Source of the DNA: Candidatus Electrothrix aestuarii
Lineage (GTDB): Bacteria; Desulfobacterota; Desulfobulbia; Desulfobulbales; Desulfobulbaceae
DNA: 64,000 nucleotides
Direction of reading: 5' to 3'
NCBI GenBank assembly: GCA_032595685.2
Contig: CP159373.1
Coordinates: 207,001-271,000 of the forward strand
Shown: positions 56,307-62,628 of the stretch, piece by piece
Layout: every line of letters starts with the position of its first letter
Numbering within the stretch: the stretch's first letter is position 1
Notes under the pieces: generated by a model
What the model was told of the DNA's origin: nothing
The model's database searches: none
Seen by the model: the letters and a program-made list of their open reading frames with translations, nothing else
Position numbers and translations under genes: made by a program

Positions 56307-58145
56307 ATGCACTTTAATATACAAACTATAAACTACCTGAAAGAATCAAAGCTTTTTTCGCTTTGCTCAAATACTGATCTTGCTCGCATTGCTCCCTTTA
56401 TCTCTGAAATTTCTCTCAATACAGGAGATCTCTTATTCTATACCGGAGAGCACGCCGAAAGCCTGTTCCTGCTCATGGATGGTCAAATTGAAATCCAGTC
56501 AGGAAGGAGAATTTTAAATACAATAAAGTCAGGAACCTTAGGAGAAGAAAGCGTTAATAGAAAGGGAAAATATCTCACAACGGCTGTTGCACTGCAAGAT
56601 GCAAAGCTCCTGAAAATTCCACAAAAGCAGCTCCTCCGCTTACTCAAGAAGTACCCAGAGATGAAGGACAAGGTCTATTCATCCCTGGTAAATCACCACG
56701 CTTACATTAAAATTGAGGATAAGACAAACAAAGAGGTCAAAAAAGACGACGCTGAAATCATCACGGTTATCGGCTGGATCTTTGCTATTCTCTTACCCTT
56801 AGCTACCTATTATTATGCCGACAATCTCGCCTTTGACTGGAAGAGTAAGATATTCTTAACCGTTGCCATTGCAACGGTGGTTATGTGGATCTTCAGGCTG
56901 GTTGATGAGTATATCCCCAGTATTATGGCCATCATAGCAATACTGGTTCTGGATATAGCGCCGCCCGATGTCGTCCTCTCGGGCTTTACCTCGGGAAGTT
57001 TTTTTATGGCGCTGAGTATTTTTGGGCTCAGTGCCATTCTAACAACGAGTGGGGTAACCTACAGAATCGTTATCAATTTATTCAGATTTCTTCCCTTATC
57101 GCAATTCTGGCATTCCCTGGCAATCTTTATAACCGGTATCTTTCTTACTCCACTTTTTCCCTCTGCAAATGGACGTATAGGGATTGCCACACCTATCTTA
57201 TTGGATATGGCAGAATCTCTTGGTTATAGGAAAGGAGGCAAGGCCGCAACACGTCTTGCCATTGCAACCTTTTCTGGTTTCACATTATTTTCCAGCATCT
57301 TCCTGAGTAGTAAGTCCATGCATTTTATTGTCTTCGGCATCCTTCCTCTTCAAGTACGGGAACGATTCAGCTGGGGATATTGGTTGTATGCCTCCCTGAT
57401 TGCCGGGCTTGTTCTCATGGGCTTTTACTTCCTCCTAACGCAGGTCATGTTTCAAAACAGTGATAAGCCGAGGCTCTCCCGAGATATCATAAAAGCGCAG
57501 TATGAAGTACTGGGACCGTTATCTGCTCAGGAATGGGCCGCTATCGGCGGTATTGCTCTTTTTGCTCTGGGTGTTGCGACCTCATCAATCCACAAAATCC
57601 AACTCCCCTGGGTGGGTTTTGCAGTTCTCTATCTCATCCTCGTCCTCGGATTTCTTTCAAAAAGAGACTTCAAAACCCATGTGGACTGGACCTTTCTCCT
57701 CTACCTTGGCGCACTCATCGGCCTGATAAAAACAATATCATATCTTGGGCTCGATACCCTGCTTGGACAGGAATTCGTGTGGTTAGGGAAATATATGAAG
57801 GACGATTTTTATCTGTTCGTTCCACTCCTTTCTATCTGCACGATGCTTCTCAGACTCTTTATTCCCAATACCGCAACAGTTGCGATTCTTTCCTCTGTTC
57901 TCTTTCCTATCGCCCTTTCAAACGGTATCAACCCCTGGATTATCGGATTTATTATCCTTATCATGAGTGATTCCTGGATCATGCCCTATCAGTGCTCTTA
58001 TTACCTTCTCTTTGATGAACTCACATCATCCAGAAAAATTTTTAGCAAGGCTATGATGTTGGAATTTAATCTCATTTCAATATTTTTCAGAGTAGCTGCA
58101 ATATATGCCTCCATACCGTTTTGGAAATCAATCGGAATTTTATAA
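56307..58145 (+). CDS. Cyclic nucleotide-binding domain fused to DASS/SLC13-type transporter
   Basis: 612 residues. The first 125 form a cNMP-binding domain (FSLCSNTDLARIAPFISEIS then GDLLFYTGEHAESLFLLMDG). A linker at 130-150 leads to about twelve helices of a divalent anion:Na+ symporter, with LFPSANGRIGIATPILLDMA and RLFIPNTATVAILSSVLFPI (paired SNT-like substrate motifs). Such an N-terminal sensor fused to a carboxylate/sulfate carrier is uncommon. It could gate uptake by cAMP or c-di-GMP-like signals; the RxA phosphate-binding motif is degenerate, so binding is uncertain. Confidence 0.8.
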   Translation: MHFNIQTINYLKESKLFSLCSNTDLARIAPFISEISLNTGDLLFYTGEHAESLFLLMDGQIEIQSGRRILNTIKSGTLGEESVNRKGKYLTTAVALQDAKLLKIPQKQLLRLLKKYPEMKDKVYSSLVNHHAYIKIEDKTNKEVKKDDAEIITVIGWIFAILLPLATYYYADNLAFDWKSKIFLTVAIATVVMWIFRLVDEYIPSIMAIIAILVLDIAPPDVVLSGFTSGSFFMALSIFGLSAILTTSGVTYRIVINLFRFLPLSQFWHSLAIFITGIFLTPLFPSANGRIGIATPILLDMAESLGYRKGGKAATRLAIATFSGFTLFSSIFLSSKSMHFIVFGILPLQVRERFSWGYWLYASLIAGLVLMGFYFLLTQVMFQNSDKPRLSRDIIKAQYEVLGPLSAQEWAAIGGIALFALGVATSSIHKIQLPWVGFAVLYLILVLGFLSKRDFKTHVDWTFLLYLGALIGLIKTISYLGLDTLLGQEFVWLGKYMKDDFYLFVPLLSICTMLLRLFIPNTATVAILSSVLFPIALSNGINPWIIGFIILIMSDSWIMPYQCSYYLLFDELTSSRKIFSKAMMLEFNLISIFFRVAAIYASIPFWKSIGIL

Positions 58146-58150
58146 AAGTC

Positions 58151-59164
58151 ATGAAAAATACAATAATTAGACTGTTAACTGTATCTTTCGTTACGATACT
58201 TATAATTTTTCTTGTTGTAACCAATCTCAGCAAACCGAGGATACTCGTCCTACACAGTTACAATCTTGATTTTACCTGGGTTGAAAATATTAATGTCGGC
58301 ATCCTCAGGGTTCTGGAAAAGAAGCCCTATTCCATACGGTGGCATTATATGGATACCAAAAGGAATCCATCACCAGAGTATAAGGAAAAGGCGGGAAGAA
58401 ATGCCATAAAGGCAATCAATCAGTGGAATCCGAATATTATTATTGCTGTAGACGATAATGCCCAAAAATTTGTGGCAATGCATTATAACAACAGCAAAGC
58501 GATAAATATTGTCTTCACAGGTGTAAATGCCTCTGTTGACACATACGGTTATGATAAAGCGAAAAATGTAACAGGCATTCTTGAACGCATTCCTTTCCAA
58601 GAATTCCGAGAAATCTTTGTGCAAATCTTACCAAAGAATAAACGACGCATTGTCCATATTTCCGACTCATCAGTCACCTCCCAATTAGTGCATGAAGAAT
58701 TAACCAATGTGGACTGGAGTCCGCTCAAGCTCGTTAAATCGTTTCAATGCGAAACCTTTAAAGAGTGGAAAGAGGTCATTAAAAATGTCGACAAAATAGG
58801 AGATATACTTCTCGTCACCCATTACCACACCCTTCAGGATGAAAATGGCAAAACAATGAGTCCAACAGATGTCATGGCGTGGACAGCTGAGAATGTAAAA
58901 ATACCCGATATCGGCTGTTGGGGATTCTTTGTCAAAGATGGTGGAATGATGTCAATAGCTGTTTCACCTTATGAACAGGGCGAAGAAGCTGCTAAAATGG
59001 CGGTAAAAATTATTGAGGAGAAGATCCCGCCCAACGAAATAGAGGTGAAAATCAACAGCCTCTATGTCGTCCACATGCGAGGAGACAAACTCAAAGAAAG
59101 AAATATATCTCCACCTAAAATGCTGGAAGCATTCGCGAAAGCGACAAATAATTATTACGAATAG
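58151..59164 (+). CDS. ABC-type substrate-binding-like protein
   Basis: 337 residues from the second ATG (MKNTIIRLLTVSFVTILII), giving an N-terminal membrane anchor/signal; an ATG at 58121 overlaps the transporter gene and is possible. The PF04392-like body contains RILVLHSYNLDFTWVENINV, NIIIAVDDNAQKFVAMHYNN and GEEAAKMAVKII. No ABC permease or ATPase is nearby, so it may act as a sensor domain or partner for the transporter before it. The gap is five bases. Confidence 0.72.
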   Translation: MKNTIIRLLTVSFVTILIIFLVVTNLSKPRILVLHSYNLDFTWVENINVGILRVLEKKPYSIRWHYMDTKRNPSPEYKEKAGRNAIKAINQWNPNIIIAVDDNAQKFVAMHYNNSKAINIVFTGVNASVDTYGYDKAKNVTGILERIPFQEFREIFVQILPKNKRRIVHISDSSVTSQLVHEELTNVDWSPLKLVKSFQCETFKEWKEVIKNVDKIGDILLVTHYHTLQDENGKTMSPTDVMAWTAENVKIPDIGCWGFFVKDGGMMSIAVSPYEQGEEAAKMAVKIIEEKIPPNEIEVKINSLYVVHMRGDKLKERNISPPKMLEAFAKATNNYYE

Positions 59165-59217: not shown

Positions 59218-60165
59218 TTAGCGCTCCGCATCGCCCATCTTTGTCCCATTACCGGCAGGATGATAATGCACATAGACCTTGCGGAGCATTTCTATCCCCT
59301 TCAAGAGCTTACTCTCCACCTGGTCGGCAATTTCATCTCCTTTCCTGACGGTCAGATCCCCATCAATGCAGATGGTCAGGTTGACCACGAGGTAGGGTCC
59401 AAAACGATGGGCGTGAATATCCTCAATGGCCTCTACCTCGATGACCTCCTCCAGCAGATCATAAATTTCCCGAGCCAGTTCCTCACTGGGCACATTATCC
59501 ATCAAATCCGAAGAAGCCTCACGAAGGATGTCCAGGCCTGTCTTCGCCATGATCACTGCCACAACAGCTCCGGCTACGGGGTCCACCCAGGGGGCACCCA
59601 TCTGGCTCAAAGTAATACCGATAGCAGCACCAGCTGAGGCAAAAATATCATTGAGATGGTCCTGAGCCAAGGCCTTGATCGCCAAGTTTCCTGTCTCCTG
59701 CCCGACCTTGCGCGCCTGAAGCATAAGCAATATCTTGGTAAAAATGGTGGCTAAGGCCACATACAGGGCAAACTGCCCTATGGGGTGTGACGGTACGGCG
59801 CCGGTAAATAATTTAAAGGCAAAATCTATGGAATCCCAGAAGATCGCTGCACCGGTGGTGATAACAAAGGCACCGATAACCAAGGCCGCTATGCTCTCAA
59901 GCTGGTGGTGTCCATAGGGATGCTCGCAATCTGCCGGTTTTCCAGAAAGCCGGACAAAGATCTTCACCGCGATAAAGTAGATCACGTCAGAAATTGAGTT
60001 AATACCATCGGCCAGTAAGGCCTGGCTATGCCCTATGATACCTGCAACCACCTTGACCAGGGCAAGGACGGTGTTGCAAAACAGGCCGACATTCACCACA
60101 TTTTCGGCTTTTTTCCGGCGGTGTTCCGAGTTGTCACAGCGAAGTGGGCTTAGAAGTTCAGCCAT
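59218..60165 (-). CDS. Cation diffusion facilitator family transporter
   Basis: 315 residues. Six helices with LADGINSISDVIYFIAV in helix 2, CEHPYGHHQLESIAALVIG (cytoplasmic His-rich loop then helix 3) and ALAQDHLNDIFASAG in helix 5 form the metal site typical of Zn/Fe CDFs. A C-terminal domain (DIHAHRFGPYLVVNLTICID) follows. It exports divalent metals from the cytoplasm by proton exchange. It lies 77 bases behind the last Gly/Cys-tail gene on the same strand. Confidence 0.88.
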   Translation of the reverse strand: MAELLSPLRCDNSEHRRKKAENVVNVGLFCNTVLALVKVVAGIIGHSQALLADGINSISDVIYFIAVKIFVRLSGKPADCEHPYGHHQLESIAALVIGAFVITTGAAIFWDSIDFAFKLFTGAVPSHPIGQFALYVALATIFTKILLMLQARKVGQETGNLAIKALAQDHLNDIFASAGAAIGITLSQMGAPWVDPVAGAVVAVIMAKTGLDILREASSDLMDNVPSEELAREIYDLLEEVIEVEAIEDIHAHRFGPYLVVNLTICIDGDLTVRKGDEIADQVESKLLKGIEMLRKVYVHYHPAGNGTKMGDAER

Positions 60166-60242: not shown

Positions 60243-60701
60243 TCAATTTCCTCCACAGCCACCGCAACCTCCACCTCCACCTCCACCTCCGCTGTAGCCA
60301 CTGCCTTCGCAACCGCTTCCGCCACCATAGCCTCCTCCGCACCCCTCATCACTCTCATCATCAATATCAACAAGGCTCCTCTTTTCAATCCCTATGAATT
60401 TTCTTTGCATATTTCCGATGACAATATACATAATGACACCAACAAACATCGTCCCCCACATAAGAGTAAAGCGAGACATGCCGCTTGCCTGTCCGGCTAT
60501 GAAACGAGCGGCCCCAACGGAAAGAAAAATGATCGTTGGCAGGAGCATTTTCCAACTATTATACTTTGCAAAAATCAATAAGAGAAACCAAAGAATATAA
60601 TAGCAGACAAGAAAGTCCCTCCCTTTCATATCTGGAGTCATGGAGAAGGTAAGATGAACGGTGCCTATCTCAAGCAGGAAAAAGACTATAAATTGCCACA
60701 T
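60243..60701 (-). CDS. Membrane protein with Gly/Cys-rich tail (paralogue 3)
   Basis: The start is ATG TGG CAG, behind GGAGGGGATT. 152 residues. About four helices run to residue 105 (EIGTVHLTFSMTP, FLVCYYILWFLLLIFAKY, SVGAARFIAGQASGMS). A charged stretch KRSLVDIDDESDEG precedes the Gly/Cys tail that ends GGGGCGGCGGN. It shares V-H-L...MTP, the LWF segment and the A-G-x-x-R-x-I-x-G motif with the two upstream genes. Confidence 0.75.
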   Translation of the reverse strand: MWQFIVFFLLEIGTVHLTFSMTPDMKGRDFLVCYYILWFLLLIFAKYNSWKMLLPTIIFLSVGAARFIAGQASGMSRFTLMWGTMFVGVIMYIVIGNMQRKFIGIEKRSLVDIDDESDEGCGGGYGGGSGCEGSGYSGGGGGGGGCGGCGGN

Positions 60702-60703
60702 AA

Positions 60704-61153
60704 TCAATCCCCTCCGCAGCCGCCGCAACCGCCTCCTCCGCCACAGCCACTACTACCACAGCCGCTACTCCCGCTACTTCCGCAACCTCCTCCGTAGCCA
60801 CCGCCAGAGCCAAATGTATCGGTACCAAGAACGATATATATAATTGTACCGCCGACCATCATAAGTACCAAATAGAAGAAGTTCGACATACCGTACTCTA
60901 TCCCTTCGAGTATACGAGCAAGCCCAGCAGAACAGTAGAGCATACTGGGTGCCAGTATTTCCGCTTCGATTAACCTCCCAGCAGCCAGGACAACAAACCA
61001 AAGAAAAAAATAATACAGCAAAAAGGCCTGGCCTTTCACACCAGGGGTCATGCAATGAGAAAGCTTCACTACCACAATTTCACAGAAGGAAAAAAGCAAC
61101 ACGCCTCTTGCAATCTCTTTTATCACCGTATCATCCATAAGTAGCTTACCCAT
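60704..61153 (-). CDS. Membrane protein with Gly/Cys-rich tail (paralogue 2)
   Basis: 149 residues. An N-terminal extension (MGKLLMDDTVIKEIARGVLL) precedes the same helical body as its neighbours (KLSHCMTPGVKGQAFLLYYF, LYCSAGLARILEGIEYGMSN). The tail reads GSSGSSGCGSSGCGGGGGCG then GCGGD. The ATG has AGAGG eight bases upstream. It starts 28 bases after paralogue 1 and ends two bases before paralogue 3. Confidence 0.75.
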   Translation of the reverse strand: MGKLLMDDTVIKEIARGVLLFSFCEIVVVKLSHCMTPGVKGQAFLLYYFFLWFVVLAAGRLIEAEILAPSMLYCSAGLARILEGIEYGMSNFFYLVLMMVGGTIIYIVLGTDTFGSGGGYGGGCGSSGSSGCGSSGCGGGGGCGGCGGD

Positions 61154-61181
61154 GTGAGCCTCTAATCATTTTCCACCTATC

Positions 61182-61607
61182 TCACCCTCCTCCACCTCCG
61201 CAACCACCACAGCCGCCTCCACCTCCACCGCCACAGCCGCCTCCAGAACCACTCATACCTCCTCCTCCACCGCAACCTCCTCCAGTACCAAATCCTCCTC
61301 CTGTTCCTTGAGAAAAATTCGCCAGCAGAAGATAAACAACTAGCCCCTCAAACATCGTAGCCCATATGCAACCAGCACCTGACAAGCCATACCCGTGCCC
61401 TGCGATAATACGTGTAACCCCAGCAGAAACGTAAACAACTATAGGCACAAGTATCTCCCAGTCGTTTAACTTGGTCATAATCAGCAGGACAAACCAGAGA
61501 ACAACATAATACAGCAGAAAGTTTGCATCTCCTATGAGGGGAGTCATAAGTAAAGAAAGATGCACGGCCCCGTATTCAATCAAGATGAACAAAAAACAAT
61601 TACTCAT
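61182..61607 (-). CDS. Membrane protein with Gly/Cys-rich tail (paralogue 1)
   Basis: 141 residues. The start ATG overlaps the radical SAM stop by eight bases, behind GAGGTGG. Helical body: YGAVHLSLLMTPLIGDANFL, LYYVVLWFVLLIMTKL, YVSAGVTRIIAGHGYGLSG. From residue 103 the sequence is almost only Gly with Cys and Ser, ending GGGCGGCGGGGG. It is translationally coupled to the radical SAM enzyme, the strongest hint that the tail is a substrate. Confidence 0.78.
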   Translation of the reverse strand: MSNCFLFILIEYGAVHLSLLMTPLIGDANFLLYYVVLWFVLLIMTKLNDWEILVPIVVYVSAGVTRIIAGHGYGLSGAGCIWATMFEGLVVYLLLANFSQGTGGGFGTGGGCGGGGGMSGSGGGCGGGGGGGCGGCGGGGG

Positions 61608-62628
61608 TCCTAACCACCTCTTTCACTGCTTCAGAGCGAACATAACACCCAGGGTCCCGTGTAAAAGGATCGCCATTCTTTGCCATTGCAAGGCATTTCA
61701 ACCCACCATGACAAGTCCTCGCATGTCTGCATTTTTCGCAGCCCCGAACAGAAAGGCTATTATCCTGAAGGCGTCTGAGCAGATCATTGGTCTCATATAT
61801 TTCTGAAAGGCTGTGTTCAAAGAGGTTACCCACCAGATATTCCATCCTTCTGCAAGGATAGACATCCCCATTAGGCATGAGGGCAAGCAGGGTTCGTCCG
61901 GCAGAGCACCGATACGGCCTTTGGAAGGGAAAGGAAAGGAATTGCAGGCCCCTGGCAAAAGAAATGCGGTTGCGGGTAAAGGGATGATGCAGATTGATGA
62001 GAACAGCCAGCCGCAAGAGCCAGATATACTTCCTGACCTCAGCAGGTCCAAGGGAAAGCCCCTCTGCATCTCCGGGGCTCGGTATCACCCGATCTGTCCA
62101 AAGATGGTTGATATTGAGGCGATTACAGAGAAAGGATAATTTCAATATATCCTTATAATTTTTCTTCGTTGCGGTGAAGGAGACACTTGTTCTGATACCT
62201 GCGGCGACCAGCTGCCTAATCCCCTGTACTGCCCTGGTAAAACTCCCCTTCCCTCGGATGAGCTCATGCTTCTCTTTGGTGCCGTCTAAGCTGATTTGCA
62301 CATAGGCAGGGGGATGTTTTTTCAGGAATTGAATACGCTCGGCATCGATATAATGCCCATTGGTGAGGAGGCTATAACTTCGGATGGTTTTCTGCGCATG
62401 CACCTTTTCTATCAGGGCCTCAAGGTGCGGGAACAAAAAGGGCTCGCCACCGGTGAGGGTAAGATGAAGAGGTCCCCGCGACCGGTATCTGATCCGGAAT
62501 TGCTCAATCTGGGTCAGCACCTGCTCTATCTCCTCCAACGAAAGCTCGCTGGCATCCTCATAGCTCTGCTGGTAGCAATGCAGGCAGCGAAGGTTACAGC
62601 GATTTGTAATATGCCATTGAAAGATCAT
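61600..62628 (-). CDS. Radical SAM/SPASM-domain protein
   Basis: 342 residues. The iron-sulfur motif CNLRCLHC (CxxxCxxC at 11, 15, 18) is followed by LTLTGGEPFLFPHLEALIE, the SAM-binding GGEP. The C-terminal SPASM part has PNGDVYPCRRMEYLVGNLF and GCEKCRHARTCHGGLKC. SPASM enzymes of this sort modify peptides (thioether, cyclophane, oxidation). It starts 22 bases after the helicase stop and overlaps paralogue 1. No PqqD partner is adjacent; the nearest is at 52740. Confidence 0.88.
   Translation of the reverse strand: MIFQWHITNRCNLRCLHCYQQSYEDASELSLEEIEQVLTQIEQFRIRYRSRGPLHLTLTGGEPFLFPHLEALIEKVHAQKTIRSYSLLTNGHYIDAERIQFLKKHPPAYVQISLDGTKEKHELIRGKGSFTRAVQGIRQLVAAGIRTSVSFTATKKNYKDILKLSFLCNRLNINHLWTDRVIPSPGDAEGLSLGPAEVRKYIWLLRLAVLINLHHPFTRNRISFARGLQFLSFPFQRPYRCSAGRTLLALMPNGDVYPCRRMEYLVGNLFEHSLSEIYETNDLLRRLQDNSLSVRGCEKCRHARTCHGGLKCLAMAKNGDPFTRDPGCYVRSEAVKEVVRNE

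Follow-up and report, generated by a model that had tools for sequence, protein, structure and literature searches.

We describe a putative maturation system of Candidatus Electrothrix aestuarii, a cable bacterium, that is encoded in a 64,000-nucleotide stretch of contig CP159373.1 (the window, by which the whole stretch at its full length is meant). The system consists of a radical SAM/SPASM enzyme and three small membrane proteins that end in tails of glycine and cysteine (Gly/Cys tails); relatives of the enzyme that form one clade with it were found together with a tailed membrane protein in 20 of 20 genomes. The reading that we favor, and consider probable, is that the enzyme is a maturase, that the membrane-anchored proteins are its dedicated substrates and that it modifies their Gly/Cys tails. 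The parts of the system are located as follows.

61600..62628, minus strand: radical SAM/SPASM enzyme, 342 amino acids (aa); Pfam Radical_SAM 85.8 bits, SPASM 37.1 bits
61182..61607, minus strand: tailed membrane protein 1, 141 aa, four hydrophobic segments
61185..61298, minus strand: Gly/Cys tail of protein 1, 38 aa, with 29 Gly and 4 Cys
60704..61153, minus strand: tailed membrane protein 2, 149 aa
60707..60805, minus strand: Gly/Cys tail of protein 2, 33 aa, with 20 Gly and 5 Cys
60243..60701, minus strand: tailed membrane protein 3, 152 aa from an ATG; a longer reading from a TTG begins at 60728
60246..60338, minus strand: Gly/Cys tail of protein 3, 31 aa, with 21 Gly and 3 Cys

With 8 bases shared by the enzyme gene and tailed gene 1, and with gaps of 28 and 2 bases before genes 2 and 3, the four genes seem to form a single operon. 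The overlap of the radical SAM gene with the first of three tandem paralogues had been pointed out in a preliminary description of the stretch, and the coordinates agree with it. Two other observations made there were also borne out: hydropathy analysis revealed four hydrophobic segments in each of the three proteins, and the common body motifs V-[HK]-L..MTP, LWF and S[AV]G-x-x-R are real in an alignment.

A genome was assigned to the enzyme clade when it contained a match of more than 320 bits to a profile of 12 sequences (the next matches below the clade scored 257 bits or less), or one of at least 38% identity in a scan of the collection. The collection scan, which gave loci L004-L024, was pattern-based and incomplete; the genome searches were samples, the large ones scoring 5-7 candidates per genome, and the phylum assignment of some genomes is inferred. 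The clade defined in this way comprises five Electrothrix genomes (G000, G004, G005, G006 and G007) and 15 genomes from outside the cable bacteria, namely the eight behind loci L006-L013, G270, the Nitrospinota genomes G451, G452 and G458, and the Nitrospirota genomes G1022, G1033 and G1093. A tailed gene coding for either a TIGR04222 (near_uncomplex) protein or a four-helix protein is present in all 20; in G005, the contig ends inside the tail. The tailed gene is next door to the enzyme gene or one gene away in 19 of the 20 and is its immediate neighbor in 17, counting G448, whose enzyme and partner genes lie on separate contigs (L087 and L013), and G1022, where only a TIGR04222 fragment remains (32.9 bits, below the 43-bit cut-off of the family). 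One gene separates the two in G1033 and G1093. The partner is of the TIGR04222 type in the 15 non-cable genomes (the fragment in one of them) and a four-helix protein in the five cable genomes. The 43-bit cut-off was reached by all seven TIGR04222 proteins of L006-L012 (66.6-124 bits) and also in G448, G270, G1033, G1093, G458, G452 and G451; nine non-cable clade genomes that were searched contain exactly one TIGR04222 protein each. Close homologues of the enzyme from outside the genus (L006-L013, 38-44% identity) all lie beside tailed TIGR04222 proteins, and the records of the clade bear the names Desulfomonile, Nitrospina, Nitrospiraceae, Verrucomicrobia, Spirochaetes and Bacillota. Conservation of the gene neighborhood had been suggested earlier as a check; enzyme and tailed membrane protein occur together in every clade genome and across several phyla.

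The clade enzyme was detected in 2 of 297 Desulfobacterota genomes (G000 and G270) and in 4 of 395 Nitrospirota genomes; among 77 Nitrospinota genomes, five contain TIGR04222, and all five have the enzyme. No match to the enzyme at 1e-40 was retrieved from 72,556 plasmid records. At 22 Desulfobacterota loci with non-clade radical SAM genes (198-245 bits), no tail gene was found within flanks of 1.5 kb, four of which were shorter; an open reading frame (ORF) flagged in L081 is Arg/Pro-rich and antisense and was not counted as a tail. Likewise, no tailed neighbor was present at 16 radical SAM loci of the same family or order (L030-L045), at L134 and L135 (both short loci) or at L136, where the enzyme frame is outside the listing. 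L014-L024 had no tail gene except for one Gly/Cys ORF in L018; this ORF, at a distance of 2.5 kb and running antisense to a kinase gene, was left uncounted. The exception is G1234, where the gene for a non-clade radical SAM protein (239 bits, CxGC type) adjoins that for a Cys-tailed TIGR04222 protein (56 bits); judging by these sequences, it represents a second radical SAM lineage with the same kind of partner.

Both Pfam domains of the enzyme scored over cut-off, and its N-terminal CxxxCxxC motif is formed by C11, C15 and C18, which places it among radical SAM/SPASM proteins. Together with the SPASM-region cysteines C241, C259, C297, C300, C306, C312 and C328, these make up ten cysteines that are invariant in 12 of 12 sequences. 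Since the reading starts directly at the core domain, the gene contains no RRE/PqqD domain. A search of NCBIfam returned 89 families at E<=1, headed by TIGR04340 (ACGX-system radical SAM) with 141.8 bits against a cut-off of 400; in the best 25 of the 89, the enzyme stayed below the cut-offs of the named radical SAM maturases (ACGX, mycofactocin, PapB, StsB, PqqE and others). When solved structures were searched by profile, SkfB came first (4e-27) and 5wgg, which we take to be CteB, second. The best fold matches of an AlphaFold model of the enzyme (mean pLDDT 75.7, weaker toward the SPASM end) were SkfB, then PqqE and then 5wgg. Thioether formers (SkfB and 5wgg) are thus two of the three best solved structures, both by profile and by fold.

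In a tree of 48 rows, all of which contain CxxxCxxC, one clade with support 100/99 united the five enzymes of Electrothrix with 13 from TIGR04222 genomes; the Electrothrix enzymes are nested inside it, beside a Spirochaetes enzyme (97/92). All 18 clade rows carry the SPASM signature CxxC-x5-CxGGxxC; outside the clade, 29 of 30 rows have CxGC, and a single one, the long-branch neighbor L014, has CxGGxxC. The tree left out L136, L019-L024, most of L030-L045 and the partial enzymes of G448 and G1022, as well as control rows L073 and L081, which the motif filter missed. Because the cable enzymes are nested inside the clade, the TIGR04222 partner is probably ancestral.

Two further observations were made at loci of the clade. 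In G1022 (L140:3469-4810), the enzyme reading is interrupted and continues into the C-terminal portion of the TIGR04222 gene, including its tail. The arrangement is flanked on both sides by copies of a similar small gene end and looks like a deletion by recombination. At eight loci of Desulfomonile, Nitrospinota and Nitrospirota (L006, L007, L009, L127, L129, L130, L138 and L139), the enzyme gene or the enzyme/TIGR04222 pair has in its vicinity a gene for a nucleotidyltransferase-like protein of ca. 250 aa (NTP_transf_2), which in two of them lies between the enzyme and TIGR04222 genes. Of six of these eight proteins scanned with Pfam, three scored just over the 21-bit cut-off, two below it and one gave no match; the other two were assigned by eye. 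It is possible that this gene codes for a third component, one not seen in cable loci.

The three window proteins gave no match to TIGR04222 of NCBIfam at E<=1 and so stay below its 43-bit cut-off. The preliminary description had nevertheless hinted at near_uncomplex-type families, and the hint was right and stronger than stated: in profile comparisons, the bodies resemble reduced TIGR04222 relatives. With tails removed, profile-profile comparison of the four-helix bodies with 21 TIGR04222 bodies gave a score of 36.5 (probability 78), while 150 block shuffles that kept the hydrophobic segments reached at most 24.4, and neither a reversed profile nor any of 62 control windows exceeded 19.6. When the soluble domain was cut out of TIGR04222, the hhalign score was 51.3 (probability 96.5, 71 columns aligned) against at most 28.8 for 300 block shuffles; the cut was placed by hand after separate helix matches had been seen, and random two-piece cuts of the TIGR04222 alignment (47 scored) reached up to 42.2. 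One of 86 control windows scored 31.6 and the others 16.7 or less. This one control, a membrane ORF of 207 aa, is located close to the TIGR04222 gene of L010 and by eye is PAP2 phosphatase-like, and because its GVSRIYLG stretch resembles the second shared helix, that part of the body match is weak evidence alone. Compared singly with the TIGR04222 core, the window's first protein (w1) scored 21.2 and five other cable proteins 32.0-46.6. The shared line runs from an xGPxFLxxY-helix to a helix with a G-x-x-[KR] motif and then to a third helix; the soluble domain of ca. 115 residues that TIGR04222 proteins have between the first and second shared helices is absent from the cable proteins aligned.

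As judged from these comparisons, the Electrothrix proteins are very likely TIGR04222 membrane cores minus the soluble domain plus one extra N-terminal helix; the hand-placed cut, the random cuts reaching 42.2, the control at 31.6 and the 21.2 of w1 keep us from putting it more strongly. The four-helix body is therefore probably not a new fold. An AlphaFold model of a four-helix protein was poor (mean pLDDT 52.7). The idea of an unrelated new body with a transplanted tail was dropped after the profile comparison had matched the body to the TIGR04222 membrane core. Membership in DUF4345 (PF14248) was likewise rejected: this weak Pfam match appeared for four of seven members at E<=1, the best at 16.8 bits, short of the gathering score of 26.5.

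The tails of the window proteins are 31-38 residues long and mainly Gly, with 3-5 Cys each. They had been described as all ending in GGCGGCGG-x, which does not hold for protein 1, whose terminus is GGCGGCGGGGG. Codons matching GCGGCGG were found at three places in the 5.1-Mb genome, all of them at this locus, and a reversed-pattern control gave 0 occurrences; it thus follows that the GCGGCGG tail ends are not due to chance. Since synonymous Gly and Cys codons are mixed within the tails, an artefact of a simple DNA repeat is also ruled out. A Cys-rich tail (3-9 Cys) was present in 20 of 20 radical SAM-linked genes measured. The earlier view that bodies diverged while tails remained constant stands for the three paralogues; between the window and G007, the closest genome (enzyme 97% identical), it stands for gene 1, with five amino-acid changes in 103 body codons and none in 38 tail codons, and is reversed for gene 2, whose body has no amino-acid and three silent changes in 116 codons and whose tail differs by three amino acids over 24 aligned codons and has 10 gapped positions besides. 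Electrothrix genomes carry one to four copies of the four-helix tailed gene. The four copies of G007 (L049:3300-4420) include a third with an in-frame stop and a fourth that is cut short; from these, the array seems to expand and decay quickly.

The architecture of a SPASM peptide maturase, together with a constant Cys-rich tail partner, is most simply read as that of an enzyme modifying the tail. The tail suggests itself as the substrate, since every partner has one and since it abounds in residues used by thioether-forming SPASM enzymes. In the mechanism that we propose, the enzyme would act on the C-terminal Gly/Cys tail of a substrate whose body is the TIGR04222 membrane core; the body would serve as an inherent leader and as anchor, and the tail would be a core that remains on the protein, presumably modified in the cytosol, before or without export. 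The Electrothrix body would have lost the soluble domain and gained an N-terminal helix, and most other bacteria of this type would use the full TIGR04222 protein. The Gly, Cys and Ser of the tail offer few modification targets. Since glycine is a documented acceptor in sactipeptides (PMC8326336, in excerpt), our tentative guess, one among the possible crosslinks, is that several Cys-to-Gly alpha-carbon thioether (sactionine-type) rings are formed. The likeliest biological role is metal or redox binding at the membrane. The sequence comparisons described above do show the pairing, the class of the enzyme and its clade; they show the relation between the bodies with less certainty.

Several observations weigh against tail modification by this enzyme. 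In G451, the enzyme and tailed genes are unlinked. Enzyme and body are both missing from three of eight genus genomes (G001-G003), and the only body match of G001 covers the last helix and Gly tail of a different protein. The second tail of G007 does not have the CGGCGG end, and copies three and four of that array are the interrupted ones. In systems for ribosomally synthesized and post-translationally modified peptides (RiPPs), a precursor gene with leader and core lies next to that of the modifying enzyme; here, enzyme and tailed gene are adjacent, and no separate leader or RRE was identified at the locus. The evidence on the membrane side of the tail points both ways: by our own count, the loop charges of the four-helix proteins lean slightly to an internal C terminus, and TIGR04222 tails are placed in the periplasm by a 2025 survey (PMC12452194, parts of which are considered here and below). 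Among 387 Verrucomicrobiota genomes, ten have TIGR04222 over cut-off, and nine of these contain no clade enzyme (no match at 1e-40), G443 being the only one that does. All eight of the radical SAM-less Verrucomicrobiota genes that are seen to their end carry a CGGCGG-type tail (six of nine tails were measured and two more were read; the reading of L111 stops before any tail). Finally, subsets of TIGR04222 have been proposed as MNIO substrates, many being tied to MNIO or to no such enzyme; about a third of TIGR04222 genomes (490 of 1372) are without MNIO (PMC12452194).

The enzyme, then, cannot be deduced from the tail alone. The preliminary description had named, as a finding that would refute its proposal, tailed relatives that routinely have no radical SAM gene in their vicinity; such relatives do occur in the wider TIGR04222 family (9 of 10 Verrucomicrobiota genomes) and do not in the four-helix version, as the enzyme is present in all five Electrothrix genomes that have this body. 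Its proposal that the enzyme modifies the tails is partly supported: the pairing in all clade genomes speaks for it, and as worded it lacks support, since in the wider family the tail occurs without the enzyme; the chemistry stays conjectural.

The same tails on TIGR04222 proteins without the clade enzyme are what one would expect if the target of the enzyme were the membrane body or a different molecule of the pathway, the tail being a general TIGR04222 feature that needs no enzyme (for example, a flexible tether, a surface signal or a thiol metal ligand). The conservation of xGPxFLxxY before a helix, common to both partner types, would also fit. We regard this explanation as unlikely, because Cys tails are present on 20 of 20 radical SAM-linked genes, while more than a quarter of TIGR04222 proteins have no C-proximal Cys (PMC12452194), and because the closest SPASM enzymes by profile include two that act on Cys-containing peptides.

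Immediately downstream of the tailed genes lies one more gene that has to be considered.

59218..60165, minus strand: cation diffusion facilitator (CDF) transporter, TIGR01297 207 bits, 77 bases downstream of the tailed genes

Wherever the downstream side of a cable locus can be seen, which is the case in four (the window, G007, G006 and E. aarhusensis), the CDF gene follows the tailed genes immediately, as would be expected if the tails were unmodified Cys metal ligands, a membrane metal sink serving the CDF exporter, with the enzyme an incidental neighbor. However, a helicase on the other side is also kept in cable loci, so that the adjacency may be plain synteny; the window CDF protein had no tblastn match at 1e-5 in 13 non-cable loci, and the enzyme-tail pairing crosses phyla. 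We therefore find a metal sink improbable, and whether the CDF transporter is part of the enzyme/tail system or reflects genus synteny is uncertain. A role in building the nickel-bis(dithiolene) conductive fibres was dropped as close to refuted, given the three genus genomes without enzyme and body and the spread of the clade to Desulfomonile and the other names listed above; in its favor were the host, a cable bacterium, and the sulfur-rich nickel complex that serves as cofactor of the fibres (PMC11247825, in excerpt).

Other observations concern relatives and neighbors of these genes. In G001, which lacks the enzyme, two adjacent membrane proteins (L058:1498-2655) have Gly-rich tails with one or two Cys (CCGGGGG and ACGGGGG); neither gave a family match. 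In Verrucomicrobiota loci L104-L112, several radical SAM-less TIGR04222 genes follow a conserved gene of 170-180 aa with a WSHAFAxRVIxEYKRF-like motif, and in L107 and L109, this domain is fused to TIGR04222. Four of these 170-180 aa partners were scanned and had no Pfam or NCBIfam match; the domain may be another partner of the tail. In the window, an ORF at 56307-58145 codes for a sodium:sulfate symporter-type transporter with a fused N-terminal cyclic-nucleotide-binding domain, and its end overlaps the start of the ABC_sub_bind protein ORF (58121-59164).

Returning to tail modification by the radical SAM/SPASM enzyme, one can imagine a more general scheme, which we put forward with less than even confidence: TIGR04222-type proteins would carry a built-in, never-released RiPP-like core that was taken up by unrelated maturases, i.e., MNIO, the CxGGxxC clade and the G1234 lineage. 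The cable version, a bare core plus tail, would be the minimum, so that the tail would be the conserved function and the enzyme exchangeable. MNIO as the TIGR04222 maturase is a proposal of the literature, and the survey contains "radical SAM" twice, in titles of its reference list each time (PMC12452194). A radical SAM partner for TIGR04222 was not found in the open-licence PMC literature; subscription work may have it. The enzyme class and the tailed family are known, and the consistent pairing and the reduced membrane core appear to be new. TIGR04222 tailed membrane proteins are widespread and unexplained, and a consistent radical SAM partner would be a second enzyme class for the same tail. 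The cable proteins (about 130-152 aa) would offer a minimal substrate set, one enzyme with three natural tail variants, and since the tails contain few residue types, any modification should be easy to map.

Several known systems invite comparison. The TIGR04222-MNIO systems share the membrane core, the C-terminal Gly/Ser/Cys low-complexity tail with a CGGCGG-type end and a maturation enzyme that is often adjacent (PMC12452194). They differ in the maturase, which here is a radical SAM/SPASM protein; no MNIO family member was detected in a Pfam scan, limited to the window, of six ORFs of the 59-64 kb region and two further ORFs. The cable proteins, in addition, have neither the soluble domain nor an NCBIfam TIGR04222 match. 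Targets of the ACGX system are Cys-Gly repeat peptides; its radical SAM family is the top NCBIfam match of our enzyme, which is not a member. With the sactipeptide and ranthipeptide SPASM maturases (SkfB, 6efn, and 5wgg), the enzyme shares the radical SAM and SPASM fold and clusters and the adjacent gene for a Cys-rich substrate, here a putative one. It departs from them in having no RRE, in the CxGGxxC spacing of its SPASM region and in its scores below the NCBIfam cut-offs in the best 25 families. The candidate substrates differ as well: while sactipeptide and ranthipeptide precursors are short peptides with a cleavable leader, those encoded here are polytopic membrane proteins.

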